Below, piece after piece: positions 152 through 21,166 of a stretch of DNA of 64,000 bases. Position 1 is the stretch's first letter. Every line of letters begins with the position of its first letter. The notes under the pieces were generated by a model. That model made no database searches, had not been told where the DNA came from, and was given only the letters and a program-made list of their open reading frames with translations. The DNA lies in contig NZ_UHDZ01000001.1 in assembly GCF_900458815.1 (NCBI RefSeq), positions 2,282,515 through 2,346,514 on the forward strand, in the 5' to 3' direction. A program made the position numbers and the translations under genes. This DNA is from Staphylococcus saccharolyticus (GTDB taxonomy: Bacteria > Bacillota > Bacilli > Staphylococcales > Staphylococcaceae).

Positions 152-189
152 GTAAATAAAAAAATAACCGTATCAATTAAGATACGGTT
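152..189 (-). terminator. Rho-independent terminator of the NYN nuclease gene
   Basis: A perfect 9-bp inverted repeat (AACCGTATC at 166-174, GATACGGTT at 181-189) with a 6-nt loop. On the minus strand it is followed by a run of T (plus-strand A run at 159-164). It lies 36 bp past the stop codon of the NYN gene and probably ends that transcript. Confidence 0.85.
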
Positions 190-224
190 AAAGTTAAAAA
201 GATTTATATTTAGCTAGTATTAAT

Positions 225-896
225 CTAATTAATTTTATACTTATCGTCACAAGTACGTCTACCATCTATATGCAGCGAAAGGCTATCTCTAATATCAGAA
301 CCTAAAGAATCTAACACAAAATCAATCCCTTCTGTTCTTGCTAATTTAGCAGCAGGCACAAAATCACTATCCCCAGCTATTAAAACAATTTTATCTACTT
401 GATGTTTAAATGCTAATGAAGCAATGTCTAAACCTATTTTCATATCAACACCTTTTTGTTTCAATGATAAGGTGAAGTCTTTTTCTTCCAAATCGTTTAG
501 CTCAATACTTCCATTCAGTAATTTTTTTGTACTAGAGTATTTTAGATTATATTCAACTGAAGATTCACTTAATTCCCCTAATCTTAATGCAACTTTTCTC
601 TTTTTACTTATTTCTTTGAAAAAATCTTCTGTCCATTTTTTAGTATCACTTTGAGCAAAATTTATATTTCTTTTCAATAAAGGGTGATAAACTTGTTTAT
701 CAATTGGAGGACAATCATAGTAAAAAATTCTATATAATTTATTATGTATTTCTTCTTTAAAATGTTTATCCTTTAAGTGTCTATTACAATATCTATATAA
801 TTCATCAGCTCTTTCTTTCGCCGTAACCTTACCATAAACTTTTGCACTTCTTTTTCTATAATACCCACCATCTACTAAAATAGCTACTTTTTCCAT
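225..896 (-). CDS. NYN-domain (LabA/DUF88-like) putative endoribonuclease
   Basis: This 223-residue soluble protein has the NYN fold signature of the PIN-like nuclease superfamily. Beta-strand 1 ends in VDGGYYRKR with Asp9. FYYDCPP is at 58-64, KGVDMKIGLDI at 148-158 gives Asp151 and Asp157, and LIAGDSDF at 172-179 gives Asp176 and Asp178. The acidic residues that normally hold the metal ion are therefore all present, so it should be an active, metal-dependent RNase. No membrane segment or second domain is visible. The start is fixed by an AAAGGAG box seven bases upstream. The gene is the last of a leftward unit whose upstream 1.3 kb is a hairpin array, and it ends in its own terminator. I infer that it binds or cuts those hairpins or is held in check by them. 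Family assignment is firm; the role is inference. Confidence 0.85.
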   Translation of the reverse strand: MEKVAILVDGGYYRKRSAKVYGKVTAKERADELYRYCNRHLKDKHFKEEIHNKLYRIFYYDCPPIDKQVYHPLLKRNINFAQSDTKKWTEDFFKEISKKRKVALRLGELSESSVEYNLKYSSTKKLLNGSIELNDLEEKDFTLSLKQKGVDMKIGLDIASLAFKHQVDKIVLIAGDSDFVPAAKLARTEGIDFVLDSLGSDIRDSLSLHIDGRRTCDDKYKIN

Positions 897-916
897 TTCA
901 TCACTCCTTTATATGA

Positions 917-971
917 CAAAAAACCCATGATTTCGAAAGCCCCATATGGTGGGGTTCCTACTCTCATGGGT
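917..971 (-). terminator. Nested hairpin with U-tract just upstream of the NYN gene
   Basis: On the minus strand an 8-bp stem (ACCCATGA with TCATGGGT; 923-930 and 964-971 on plus) encloses an inner CCCC/GGGG hairpin (940-943 and 951-954) and runs straight into TTTTTTG. The nuclease ribosome site follows after about 10 bases. This looks like an intrinsic terminator or attenuator between the hairpin array and the nuclease gene, so that most transcripts would stop before the nuclease. The inner G-rich stem could alternatively be a protein-binding hairpin. Termination is inferred, not shown. Confidence 0.7.
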
Positions 972-983
972 GGATTTACTAAG

Positions 984-1001
984 ATATCTATAACTAGATA
1001 T
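984..1001. promoter_or_regulatory. Palindrome, possible operator or second promoter region
   Basis: ATATCTA-TAAC-TAGATAT is a 7-bp perfect inverted repeat. Just upstream on the minus strand (about 1000-1030) is a weak promoter-like pair, TTGAAA, 17 bp, TAATAT. The two together could give the nuclease gene its own regulated start, but the promoter match is only 4 of 6 in each box. Confidence 0.35.
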
Positions 1002-1009
1002 TATCACTA

Positions 1010-1183
1010 TTAAACTAATTTTTCAATAATTTTCTCCATTTCAAAAATAATATTCTTTATTCCTCAAATCTACCTAATATCATCAATATGAAACTCTGAA
1101 TTTGGATATTATTTATTTAGGCTTTCTAAATCTCTCTCATTCTTTTCATCATCTTTATCAACAAAATATTGGCGTTGGTACAT
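1010..1183 (-). pseudogene. Decayed 3' end of an unknown gene between hairpin array and nuclease
   Basis: One minus-strand frame of 58 codons reads like protein (VDKDDEKNERDLESLNK, then YPNSEFHIDDIR, then GIKNIIFEMEKIIEKLV) but carries three internal stops (TAA, TAG, TGA). A stop precedes its first ATG. It sits exactly between the array and the nuclease hairpin. I read it as the charged C-terminal end of a lost gene, perhaps a former partner of the nuclease. I do not recognise the family, and chance coding character in AT-rich DNA is possible. Confidence 0.4.
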
Positions 1184-1263
1184 TCACTTATCTAACATTA
1201 CAAATTACAATACATGGTTGAATATTTTGTTCGTTTCTTAGATCAGGTTACTTAAGACATCGT

Positions 1264-2230
1264 GTTCCCCTACTCACTTTACGGAATTACTCATGTAGCT
1301 GCCGTCACAAATTGTTACATAAGCTCATGCACTAAAGTGGTGCGTCAGCTTACACGCTAAAATACTGTATGAGATGTATACAAATTTGTATATATCACTG
1401 TCCATATTTGGACTGTGAAACTCACTGCGCAAATCTGCGCCACGAGATCATACATCATAAATATATTTCGACTATAAGCTGCGTACTCATTGTAGGTACA
1501 TAGCTTTCATTCCTCAGATTTGGGGAGTGATAATATCCCACATATTAAAATTTTCATTTTAAGCTGCGTAGCCAAATTGACTACGCACATCTATAAGTTA
1601 GATAACCGATATTTCGGTTTTCCAAAGTAACGTTTTAGTAGTTTGGATATAAGAGAACTCATATTTGAGTTTTCTAGCTATATATATTCAGACAAGCCAC
1701 ATTTGGCTTGTCAGAACTTATAGAACGGATATAGTCGTTTTCTGATTTACCGTTGTGATATATCTACTAGTGCCGACATTTCGGCTGTATTCAGCTTAAT
1801 TTTAGAGAACGAATATTTTCGTTTTCTAATGCACTGACTTAGTGCGTCAGCATTTGTATTATTAATTAATACGCTCATTTGAGCTGAGTAAATATATAGA
1901 GCTATTCAGTTCTATTATTGAACCCACATTGGGGCTGTGTATAAATCAATATCCCCAAATTTGAGGATATTAAGCTAAGTAGATAATACGTCCACTTACG
2001 GACACATTTAACGAAACCACATTGGGTTCGGTTATACACAAAAAGGTACCCCTAATTTGGAGCACCCTTTATTCTAATATCAAACCACTTACCTATTTTA
2101 AGGTACTGGTTACAAACCTACTTTTAAATCTGTTTGTAACTTTATGAAATGTACAGTTTTGACAAGTTAAAAAGACTACATCTAACGGATACAGTCATTT
2201 AAAGGATACTCAATTTTGAGTAGTACATTT
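1264..2230 (-). ncRNA. Array of about 26 tandem hairpins, candidate structured RNA
   Basis: No ORF of note lies here. Instead the DNA is packed with short palindromes averaging one per 36 bases. Approximate hairpins (plus coordinates): 1303-1318, 1321-1351, 1373-1396, 1395-1418, 1421-1446, 1476-1506, 1507-1530, 1565-1587, 1600-1623, 1621-1647, 1652-1675, 1687-1716, 1722-1743, 1772-1785, 1804-1827, 1830-1852, 1873-1884, 1907-1937, 1949-1970, 1990-2003, 2010-2033, 2042-2070, 2083-2111, 2109-2140, 2155-2177 and 2207-2222. The last two are enclosed by a long-range stem (AAATGTAC 2147-2154 with GTACATTT 2223-2230). Many units are 22-24 nt with a one-base mismatch near stem position 4 or 5. On the minus strand most loops read AAAU or AAUA/AAUG. 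Stem sequences differ between units while pairing is kept. The array lies between a minus-strand promoter and the nuclease gene, so I infer one leftward RNA of about 1.2-1.3 kb. Orientation is inferred from the promoter and loop motif; G-U wobbles do not decide it. Confidence 0.75.
1600..1827 (-). repeat. Paralogous 22-24-nt hairpins with covarying stems
   Basis: Units at 1600-1623, 1652-1675 and 1804-1827 share one plan on the minus strand: (A/G)GA, a mismatched A, a 6-bp stem beginning AAC, the loop AATA, the matching stem ending GTT, a mismatched base and TCT. The inner stem differs (AACCGA, AACTCA, AACGAA) and the opposite strand changes with it. A shorter relative lies at 1722-1743. They look like copies of one ancestral hairpin that diverged under pressure to stay paired. 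Confidence 0.75.
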
Positions 2231-2244
2231 CAGTAGATACGTTC

Positions 2245-2273
2245 ATTATCTTTAAGAAAACTATAATTGTAAA
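2245..2273 (-). promoter_or_regulatory. Sigma-A-type promoter for the hairpin array
   Basis: On the minus strand TTTACA (plus 2268-2273) is followed after exactly 17 bp by GATAAT (plus 2245-2250). Each box matches the consensus at five of six positions. The predicted start near 2238 falls just before the long-range stem that closes the first array domain. Together with the hairpin before the nuclease it defines a leftward unit. Confidence 0.65.
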
Positions 2274-2382: not shown

Positions 2383-2730
2383 TCAAAAACCCTCCTGATT
2401 TTTAGAGAAAAATTCTCTTATTTCATCGTCTTTAATAAAATAATATGCCATCTTTCCCTCTTTATAAAAATCAAGTACCTCATTTTTATATAAAAGTCTT
2501 AAATGATGTGAAGTTGAAGCAACACTCATTTTCAATATCAAAGAAATATCACAAACACACAACTCATCTTCTTTAATCAAAGATAATATAATTTTCAATT
2601 TCTTCTCATCACAAATTTTTTCTAAAATGTTAAGTAATTTCTTAGATTTATCATCTTCTAAAAAACTTAAAGCATTGTTAACTTTATCCTCATGTACACA
2701 GATCACATCACAAGCATTTTCATAACTCAT
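2383..2730 (-). CDS. cadX: CadX/CadC-type ArsR-SmtB metal-sensing repressor
   Basis: A 115-residue winged-helix regulator that releases DNA when it binds Cd, Zn or Pb. Metal ligands of the CadC kind are visible: Cys7 and Cys11 at the N-terminus and the ELCVCD motif with Cys58 and Cys60. The recognition helix lies around SVASTSHHLRLL (69-80). It follows cadD by 18 bp in the same leftward operon, as in staphylococcal cadDX pairs. It probably acts at the palindrome before cadD. Length and motifs are normal for the family. Confidence 0.9.
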   Translation of the reverse strand: MSYENACDVICVHEDKVNNALSFLEDDKSKKLLNILEKICDEKKLKIILSLIKEDELCVCDISLILKMSVASTSHHLRLLYKNEVLDFYKEGKMAYYFIKDDEIREFFSKNQEGF

Positions 2731-2748
2731 ATGAAATCACACCCTAAA

Positions 2749-3366
2749 TTAAAATATAAATCCTAAAATTGTTTGAATAGTGTCATTTTCTATAATAATA
2801 AATAAACCTAAAGCTATATAAATAACAGCCATAATCCAACGGCTAAATTTCTCAACAATTTCTCCAACTCCTGGAATATTAGCTAATTTTTGTGCAGTAA
2901 ATACCAAGAAGAAAATTAAAATTAAAAAGACAAACAAAGTAATGAATAAATTAGTAACACTTAATGTCACAAAATACGGAACAAATAAACCAATATTATC
3001 AGCACCACAACTTGCTATCGTAACAATTGCAACCGTACCAACTAATTTAGACAATCCTTTTTCATTCAATTCTTTTTTAGCTCTCTTTTCTCCTTCACAA
3101 TCATCATAAATAGCCACTTTAATTCCTAAATAAATCGGTATTAACCCTAATAATCCTAATATCCATTTTTCAGGAACATAATTTAAGACAAAGGCAAAGA
3201 ATAAACTTACGACAATCAATGTCACAGATCCTACATATTGACCAATATAAATATCTCGATATTCCTTTTTAGTCTTTGCTTTAGCAAAAAATATTAACAA
3301 AATCACTAATAAATCTACTGCTGTCGCAATATAAAGAATAGCAGCAGTTACAATAGTCTGAATCAT
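2749..3366 (-). CDS. cadD: CadD cadmium resistance transporter
   Basis: A 205-residue integral membrane protein of the CadD family, which confers low to moderate cadmium resistance by efflux or binding. Five or six hydrophobic segments are visible. Between them lies the charged cytoplasmic stretch YDDCEGEKRAKKELNEKG (about 87-104), and VTIASCGADNIGLF (about 115-128) is typical of the family. It is the first gene of the leftward cadD-cadX unit, downstream of terS in the island, so it is island cargo. Confidence 0.92.
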   Translation of the reverse strand: MIQTIVTAAILYIATAVDLLVILLIFFAKAKTKKEYRDIYIGQYVGSVTLIVVSLFFAFVLNYVPEKWILGLLGLIPIYLGIKVAIYDDCEGEKRAKKELNEKGLSKLVGTVAIVTIASCGADNIGLFVPYFVTLSVTNLFITLFVFLILIFFLVFTAQKLANIPGVGEIVEKFSRWIMAVIYIALGLFIIIENDTIQTILGFIF

Positions 3367-6608: not shown

Positions 6609-7249
6609 TGTTTCACACCCTTATAATAAGAGTGTTTCAACTCATTTAATCGTTCAATTAATACTTTACTATCATCTTCATTCGCCTTCTCATTCTGAAT
6701 AAACTCAGTAATGATTTTCAAGCCCTCTACTAATTCTGGTGCTGGTTCATTAATTCCAGTAGCTAACTGATACAATGCCTCCATATTACCTATAACATCA
6801 GCATTACTAGATTGAACGCCTTCAAGTTCGTCTATATTGAAATCTCTACTCATGTAGTCGAACATGTAACTATTATTACTTTCTGCGAACGTCTCAAGTC
6901 CATACATGAAATACTCATTATCAAACATGAAACTAGCCATCATATCGCTTATAGTGTCATGTGTACCATCATGTAAATCATATCCAGTATAATGCCCCTC
7001 AATGCTCTCAATGAGTTTCTCAGTATGCTTTTCTGACGCAATCTCAAAAGTTTTTCTCACTTCACAATCTTTTATTAATACATGAGCATACATTTTACCT
7101 TTACTTACTAGATACACAATATTAAACGGATCGTTATATATCTTAAATGCAAAAGGTAATTTATAACTACTTTCACATAAGCCCGTAAAATATCTTAATA
7201 ATGTTGCTGCTCTAGTTTCAAATTCATTTGCGATAATCTCTACATTCAT
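6605..7249 (-). CDS. Island protein of unknown function
   Basis: About 214 residues starting MNVEIIANEF. I chose this ATG because AAGGAG lies about eight bases upstream; longer starts would run back through the neighbouring gene. It is acidic, with a central TGYDLHDGTHDTISDMMASF stretch and several aromatic residues. It lies in a tightly packed leftward operon, its start just past the preceding stop. No family is recognised. Confidence 0.7.
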   Translation of the reverse strand: MNVEIIANEFETRAATLLRYFTGLCESSYKLPFAFKIYNDPFNIVYLVSKGKMYAHVLIKDCEVRKTFEIASEKHTEKLIESIEGHYTGYDLHDGTHDTISDMMASFMFDNEYFMYGLETFAESNNSYMFDYMSRDFNIDELEGVQSSNADVIGNMEALYQLATGINEPAPELVEGLKIITEFIQNEKANEDDSKVLIERLNELKHSYYKGVKQ

Positions 7250-20326: not shown

Positions 20327-21166
20327 CTAATCATTATGATTTTTATTCAGTTGTTGAATCAAACGCTTAAATTCTGCTTCTGATTTAAATTCAAAAGTAA
20401 TTTTACCAATATTTTTAGCAGTTGAAATTTCAACCTTTGAACCATATCGTTCTTTCAATCGTCTTTCCTGTTGATGAATAAATTTAGGTTTATGGCTTTG
20501 TTTAGTCTGTTTATTACCCTTAATTGCATCTTGACTTGTTAGTTGATTGACCACTTGCTCTAAATATCTAACACTCCAAGACTCCCGGGAGGATTGTTTT
20601 GCTATTTTTTTCATTGTAGTTTCATCTTTTAGAGCTAATAGTGTACGTCCATGTGCTCCTGAAAGTTCACCTTGTTGTACCATTTGTGAGATGTTTTTAG
20701 GTAAGTGTAACAATCTCAACATATTAGCAATGTATGGTCGTGATTTACCCAATCGTTTCGCAACTTCCTGCTGAGTAATATTTAAGTCAGTCATCAGCTT
20801 CTTATAACTATCAGCCTCTTCAATAACGTTCAAATCTTCTCGTTGCAAATTCTCAATGATGGCGAGTTCCATCATATCTTCATCAGACAGTTTCTTAACT
20901 ATTGCTGGCAATTCATTTAAACCTATAATTTGAGAAGCTCTGAAACGACGTTCACCAACTACGATATAATATCCTTGTATCGTTCGACGTAACACAATAG
21001 GTTGTAATATACCATGTTGTTTAATCGATTGAGCTAAATCATTTAATCGTTCTTCATCAAACGTTTTACGAGGTTGATATGGATTAGGTTTAATTAATTC
21101 AATGGATATTTTTTGCACACTTTCATCATTATTTAATTGCAATCTTTGATCATCCGCATGAGTCAT
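20327..21166 (-). CDS. parB: ParB/Spo0J-type chromosome partition protein
   Basis: A 279-residue CTPase and parS-binding protein. The N-terminal domain has LIKPNPYQPRKTFDEERL (about 24-41) and VVGERRFRASQIIGL (about 69-83), with IENLQREDLNVIEEA following. The DNA-binding helix-turn-helix is TQQEVAKRLGKSRPYIANMLRLL. A second paralogue, Noc, is encoded at 57.5 kb. The conserved place before the methionine operon supports the call. Confidence 0.93.
   Translation of the reverse strand: MTHADDQRLQLNNDESVQKISIELIKPNPYQPRKTFDEERLNDLAQSIKQHGILQPIVLRRTIQGYYIVVGERRFRASQIIGLNELPAIVKKLSDEDMMELAIIENLQREDLNVIEEADSYKKLMTDLNITQQEVAKRLGKSRPYIANMLRLLHLPKNISQMVQQGELSGAHGRTLLALKDETTMKKIAKQSSRESWSVRYLEQVVNQLTSQDAIKGNKQTKQSHKPKFIHQQERRLKERYGSKVEISTAKNIGKITFEFKSEAEFKRLIQQLNKNHND

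Follow-up and report, generated by a model that had tools for sequence, protein, structure and literature searches.

A TEG147-type RNA hairpin precedes a NYN-domain gene in a staphylococcal phage satellite and in phages of several bacterial groups: a candidate RNA-gated nuclease beside a separate hairpin array

A window of 64,000 nucleotides from Staphylococcus saccharolyticus (RefSeq assembly GCF_900458815.1, contig NZ_UHDZ01000001.1, positions 2,282,515 to 2,346,514; coordinates below count from its first letter) was analysed around a gene for a NYN-domain protein, which is preceded on the minus strand by a single RNA hairpin of the TEG147 type and, further upstream, by a long array of hairpins (Table 1). 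The host element carries integrase, VapE-like primase, SAPI-family and small-terminase genes by Pfam, which makes it a phage satellite of the SaPI type, as stated in the initial annotation of the locus; its attachment (att) sites were not found in a quick search and the ends of the island were not located. The features that the initial annotation observed are confirmed overall. By its sequence, however, the locus is two modules, the array and the RNA-NYN pair, and not the one operon that had been proposed.

The window protein belongs to the NYN family (PF01936; its score in Table 1 compares with a cut-off of 24.2 bits) and five acidic residues (D9, D151, D157, D176 and D178) do not vary across an alignment of 45 relatives, in agreement with the annotated nuclease and its acidic residues. 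NYN is the sole Pfam match, placing the protein, at the Pfam level, outside the ToxN/AbiQ fold, again as annotated, and a terminator-like hairpin does follow the gene. A sequence search of solved structures gave no relevant match. Relatives of the protein are found in phages of Streptococcus, Lactococcus, Dorea, Moraxella, Escherichia and Proteus, and on plasmids of Thermus, Campylobacter and Xanthomonas. It is presumably an RNA-cleaving nuclease, and presumably toxic and defensive.

The U-tract hairpin that had been noted before the NYN gene is a member of the Rfam family TEG147 (RF03535), with 84.4 bits at 917-976 against a gathering cut-off of 56.1. A model of the RNA made here (R3) matches at 922-972 with 35.0 bits; nothing else in the 64 kb has an E-value <0.2, and the next match has 13.4 bits. 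One conserved hairpin stands before NYN, with no tandem near-identical repeats. The promoter-like site just upstream of it, which has a TG one base ahead of the -10, was missed by the initial annotation. A search of 108 Staphylococcaceae genomes gave NYN matches in 10 and TEG147 matches in 17; TEG147 is present in all eight genomes with a close NYN and absent from the two with a distant NYN. At the other staphylococcal NYN loci the hairpin is immediately 5' of the gene in seven out of seven, two of these NYN genes being broken, and all seven also have a promoter-like site shortly before the hairpin.

The same arrangement was sought in viral contigs using the best 80 of 189 NYN relatives, 79 of which have upstream DNA. 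A second set of relatives, the best 80 of 213, has 60 on contigs of the first set, and near-duplicate contigs remain. By an automatic rule (a hairpin of 44-61 nucleotides with a free energy, dG, <= -13, plus a U-tract), a hairpin and U-tract are located just upstream of 75 of the 79 NYN genes compared to 15 of 211 other genes on the same contigs; for the strong closed hairpin alone the counts are 76 of 79 and 44 of 211. A TEG147-type hairpin is recognised by eye at all 79 loci. When 12 phage and plasmid leaders were folded and viewed by eye, all 12 had a terminator-like hairpin, diverged in some. The hairpins at L192, L196, L198, L231, L233 and L242 (L numbers denote compared loci) were placed by a second rule and by eye.

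Three helices are seen in a 72-sequence alignment of these RNAs, with changes on both sides at 15 of 15 pairs. Paired cells make up 90.7 % (70.7 % when shuffled, 22.7-64.0 % when slid) and the covariation score is 0.599, whereas shuffles give 0.240 and slid alignments no more than 0.206. Conservation extends to unpaired bases: on the 5' side of the internal loop A, G, U and A are present in 54, 52, 61 and 71 of the 72 rows, on the 3' side G, A and A in 52, 65 and 46, and the apical loop keeps A-U-A, its U in 70 rows. The AGUA/GAA internal loop may be a bulged-G (loop E) motif, and the apical loop may resemble the tRNA-Met anticodon loop. Alignment A5 omits L180, L185, L188, L190, L196, L198, L204, L243, L254, L255, L257 and L258, these being duplicates, without upstream DNA, out of place or divergent; among the rows kept, L202 is misplaced.

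A sigma-A-like promoter with a score of at least 9.5 is found in 88 % of 80 leaders, as opposed to 20 % of shuffles, usually 30-45 bases ahead of the hairpin. About half have another, variable hairpin behind the -10 (stem of at least 7 in 54 % of 59, versus 18 %); the window leader has none. The next downstream gene is a tyrosine integrase at 30 and a resolvase at eight of 72 NYN loci, the next upstream gene has HTH_3 at 18 of 74, and the RNA-NYN module often occupies the repressor-integrase slot of prophages, the usual home of superinfection genes. By sequence, a unit of promoter-like site, covarying hairpin with its loops, U-tract, ribosome-binding-site spacing and NYN gene is repeated in phages of several bacterial groups. 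Just 3' of the NYN gene of L199 there is also a skipping-rope RNA (RF02924; 2216-2293).

Outside the sets chosen by NYN, model R3 has five matches in 348 Bacillota genomes, three of them ahead of NYN (the window, L344 and L348), and a strict RNA pattern finds nine stretches in viral contigs, six of which are NYN loci. Because these precede NYN and the rest do not, the RNA is considered strongly, not exclusively, linked to the gene. On held-out contigs R3 matched at the expected place in 12 of 20, 10 with an E-value <1e-5, some of these contigs being near copies, and it matches seven of 12 named phage and plasmid loci, three of them in the training set.

Table 1. Features at the left end of the window
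Feature	Position	Strand	Basis
Terminator-like hairpin 3' of the NYN gene	~164..190	-	Read from sequence
NYN-domain protein gene, 223 amino acids	225..896	-	Open reading frame; Pfam PF01936, 39.9 bits
TEG147-type RNA: three-part stem, AGUA/GAA internal loop, heptaloop CCACCAUAUGG region, then U-tract	918..971	-	Rfam RF03535
Promoter-like site of the RNA-NYN module, TTGAAA-17-TAATAT	998..1026	-	Just upstream of the 918-971 hairpin
Spacer between array and NYN, common to the 3' end/3' flank of terS genes of satellites	~1057..1184	-	blastn; open reading frame positions
Satellite hairpin array; ten model units at 1390-2038, weaker hairpins outside	~1240..2240	-	
Conserved array leader	2082..2225	-	Alignment A2; model R1
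Array leader: first hairpin; U-tract hairpin	2207-2222; 2169-2196	-	
Array promoter-like site, TTTACA-17-GATAAT	2245..2273	-	Sequence and leader alignment

The initial annotation had cast the array as a decoy, inhibitor or sensor of the NYN protein, and had named beforehand a consistent lack of such palindrome arrays upstream of NYN homologues as evidence to the contrary. Arrays are lacking at seven out of seven other staphylococcal NYN loci (one weak site in L083), and a further 93 NYN loci showed no cluster of array units (L012 and L247 have one site each; L190 has no upstream DNA, and L012 and L180 are one contig). On the strength of these array-less loci the array is rejected as the NYN partner. 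In L012 the NYN protein is 97 % identical to that of the window, yet there is no array upstream. Arrays are also found without NYN, adjoining other genes; two other genomes have both but apart, about 12 kb from each other on the same contig (G057) and on different contigs (G032). The terS-related stretch between array and NYN, not recognised in the initial annotation, has blastn matches (query 1105-1234) in L096, L097, L098, L100 and L101. The array appears to be a separate satellite element, one that came to adjoin RNA-NYN probably by exchange of island cargo.

Ahead of the array, the minus-strand promoter that had been described is present: of 10 leaders aligned at this site, all have GATAAT and eight have TTTACA, while rows L087, L088 and L096 do not align in the promoter part. 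About 26 hairpins had been counted. The excess is real, as perfect hairpins between 900 and 2290 exceed those in 100 dinucleotide shuffles (19 versus 9.0, standard deviation 2.5, for stems of at least 5; 10 versus 2.6, standard deviation 1.6, for stems of at least 6), but the count includes weaker local-fold hairpins, and the unit model has 10 matches on the minus strand, within 1390-2038; eight of these places match the plus strand too, seven more weakly. Many array units match on both strands. Fifty distinct units have a common six-base loop, AAAUNU (AGAUNU in a few), and different stems, consistent with the annotated description of varied rather than near-identical units.

Watson-Crick pairing holds in 38, 46 and 36 of the 50 units at pairs 7, 8 and 9, respectively; in the unit alignment (A3) the four inner pairs are the selection rule and only the outer pairs are independent evidence. 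In 39 units 86.6 % of cells pair, compared to at most 40.7 % when slid. On the basis of the pairing beyond the selected pairs and the slid control, it is concluded from the alignments that the array hairpins are under selection as structures, at the RNA or DNA level. As a sign of RNA over a DNA-level palindrome, the mismatch counts are mixed: among positions unselected or selected only in part, G-U pairs outnumber A-C mismatches by 20 to 3 at offsets 5, 7, 8 and 9, which were picked after looking; over offsets 5-11 there are 32 and 23, and an earlier count gave 20 and 22. A second conserved part of the leader (AACCA...TGGTT) was rejected as a covarying stem, its pairing being broken in several rows, therefore it is sequence and not structure that is kept there. 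No Rfam family was found for the array. An isolated two-strand match of the unit model outside the island (20411-20444) is probably an ordinary terminator.

Array DNA has matches, many very short, in 31 of the 108 Staphylococcaceae genomes, and the array leader model (R1) in 10 of 157 genomes of the order, every one in Staphylococcus. The exact leader motif occurs in 14 viral-contig and eight genome-contig stretches, the latter from Staphylococcus hominis, pragensis, devriesei, auricularis, petrasii and pasteuri. Clusters of array units also occur in other genera of the family, in the satellite-like islands L168 and L169, and outside the family, among 299 genomes of the class, unit matches are isolated (15 genomes, at most two each). 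Two arrays are present in L168 (5988-6483 and 13520-13999), one of which adjoins a Peptidase_M78/DUF4411 pair. A phage origin of the array was considered and set aside, since blastn on a phage collection gave no array match. Among plasmids, blastn matched one record, a circular satellite-like element (L102, Staphylococcus haemolyticus plasmid NZ_CP033812.1) in which the array is accompanied by an integrase and a DnaB-like helicase and which resembles an excised phage satellite.

The leader sits in satellite cargo zones, with different genes behind it. By Pfam, the genes after the array encode DUF3800 in L086 and L095 and Abi_2 in L090; Peptidase_M78 and DUF4411 genes are near the array in L121 and L168, and several other neighbours have no Pfam match. 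Guesses of a cyclase in L091 and an ADP-ribosyltransferase in L123 are not borne out by Pfam. The gene that follows shares the strand of the leader at most leader loci; L125 has only opposite-strand open reading frames, and L122 has no next gene within the DNA examined. In the window, cadC and cadD (2383-3366) lie between the terminase and the array, and their order with the array leader recurs in L084, L089, L092, L125 and L128. In L086, a DUF3800-I RNA (7086-7202) directly follows the DUF3800 gene that is itself behind a hairpin array.

The preferred reading of the RNA-NYN module, plausible if somewhat short of probable, is an RNA-gated RNase, in which a short RNA would be both antitoxin-like and an attenuator and freed NYN would stop infection. 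Because the layout is that of RCd22-AbiF, a prophage system of Clostridioides difficile, an antitoxin-like RNA with attenuation is the likeliest role for the NYN RNA. Transcription would start just upstream of the hairpin, most transcripts ending at the U-tract to give a short RNA of roughly 70-100 nucleotides and a minority reading through to give NYN mRNA. Excess short RNA would bind NYN through the AGUA/GAA loop and the A-U-A apical loop and keep it inactive, with the terminator additionally keeping the level of NYN low. A second phage that disturbs host transcription would cause the short-lived RNA to drop or read-through to rise, and the freed NYN would cleave RNA and stop the infection. 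A wider version, possible although we would lean against it, is a widespread prophage immunity in which an RNA class far broader than TEG147 gates several RNase-type effectors, most often NYN, in at least one locus Schlafen AlbA_2 and perhaps others, superinfection releasing the enzyme. Just two of 20 NYN-linked RNA loci reach the Rfam TEG147 cut-off.

A number of observations weigh against an RNA dedicated to gating NYN. Four of the 79 viral NYN loci fail the automatic rule, L287 is by eye without a hairpin of the TEG147 type, and R3 has no match at eight of the 20 held-out contigs. R3 also misses L008, L009, L018, L020-L023, L255, L257, L258, L262 and L263; many of the missed loci, which include Escherichia, Proteus, Thermus and Campylobacter ones, still fold into a hairpin. 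As for the RNA without NYN, three of the nine strict-pattern stretches (L351, L353 and L356, two with an integrase nearby) have no NYN behind them, and L353 and L356 have the RNA and promoter with no same-strand effector right behind. The RNA of L345 is flanked by a repressor-like gene on one side and a Schlafen AlbA_2 gene (668-1480) on the other, and that of L347 precedes a RelB/YafQ-like pair, identified by eye; L347 also has a good promoter-like site at the RNA and repeats nearby that look like a CRISPR array. None of the 12 TEG147 loci L071-L082 has a NYN profile match, whilst a resemblance to the opening codons of NYN persists behind the hairpin in L071, L072, L073 and L075 and, more faintly, in L074. 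One of these TEG147 genomes may, judged by map position, be Staphylococcus aureus. Given the non-NYN and orphan copies, a shared regulatory RNA fits as well as an antitoxin.

One alternative is a purely cis-acting attenuator, a riboswitch-like sensor of an infection signal that would permit read-through into NYN or another effector and have no role in trans. In its favour, structural conservation takes in the terminator, a ligand or protein might dock at the conserved unpaired loops, and the effectors of L345 and L347 suit such a device, whereas the orphans L353 and L356 and the TEG147 copies with decayed NYN would have no cis target; on balance it is rather unlikely. The orphan copies, an own promoter, and the listing of Teg147 as expressed in Staphylococcus aureus HG003, in the part of PMC5826253 drawn on here, are what would be expected if this were an independent trans-acting prophage small RNA, upstream of lysogeny-module cargo by chance. 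Alone, that would not explain an RNA close upstream of 75 of 79 NYN genes, and the idea is improbable, slightly more so than autoregulation. Under the latter, NYN would bind or cleave its own leader as a mimic of its natural substrate, setting its own level, and the CAUA apical and AGUA/GAA loops would imitate a tRNA anticodon loop or loop-E element; the conserved loops are in keeping with this, and the persistence of RNA copies without NYN is not. Finally, an array that inhibits or senses the window NYN protein is very improbable indeed: adjacency, a shared strand and possible read-through favour it, against NYN loci without arrays, arrays without NYN beside other genes, and the separate promoter-like site and terS-related stretch in between. 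With the other-effector and orphan copies, a cis sensor or an independent RNA remains well in play beside the RNA-gated RNase.

If the RNA-gated reading is true, the orphan small RNA Teg147 gains a partner and a history as NYN leader, the decayed gene start being still recognisable at several staphylococcal loci, and the RNA-toxin systems gain a nuclease type and an RNA class that are both new to them. The family is found on phages and plasmids from many hosts. Separately, the array is a covarying hairpin set in satellites; it may act as a sponge RNA whose AAAUNU loops titrate an RNA-binding protein of phage or host. CsrB-type sponge RNAs have many hairpins sharing one loop on a single RNA, as the putative array RNA does, although the array has no known binding protein. 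The phage-satellite setting is shared with the abundant noncoding IIR transcript of the PLE satellite, as described in part of PMC7567579, transcription of the array being putative. DUF3800-I RNA (RF02969) is alike in that a structured RNA is beside a nuclease-like family gene, but both the RNA structure and the protein differ from those of RNA-NYN.

The toxin of RCd22-AbiF is Abi_2, which is HEPN, whereas the window protein is NYN. No description of the RNA-NYN pair was found in the open PMC literature, a partial set whose silence is weak evidence. For Teg147, of which the window hairpin is a Rfam member, the portions of PMC5826253, PMC7779021 and PMC3053349 consulted list an expressed 60-nucleotide small RNA in S. 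aureus HG003 (PMC5826253) and a place in a genomic island, with no partner gene named and no nuclease gene linked to it. The likening to type III systems (ToxIN and kin; PMC12373285, in part) holds for the order of RNA, terminator and nuclease, conserved in the window and at 75 of 79 relatives, but the RNA partner is a single TEG147-type hairpin, neither the array nor tandem repeats, the nuclease is NYN instead of the ToxN fold, and inhibition of NYN by RNA is putative. In the passages of PMC12373285 used here, RCd22-AbiF is shown to comprise a sigma-A promoter followed by a short RNA and a terminator, with read-through into the toxin gene, and RCd22 acts in cis to reduce toxin expression and in trans by binding the toxin and neutralising it. 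RCd22 carries two abiF motifs (RF03085), whereas the window has no RF03085 or Abi_2 match, and binding and toxicity have been demonstrated for RCd22-AbiF (PMC12373285), while those of RNA-NYN are putative. The two are nevertheless alike in having one promoter, a short structured RNA that ends at a terminator, a toxin gene next to it (for NYN, a putative one) and a prophage location (PMC12373285).

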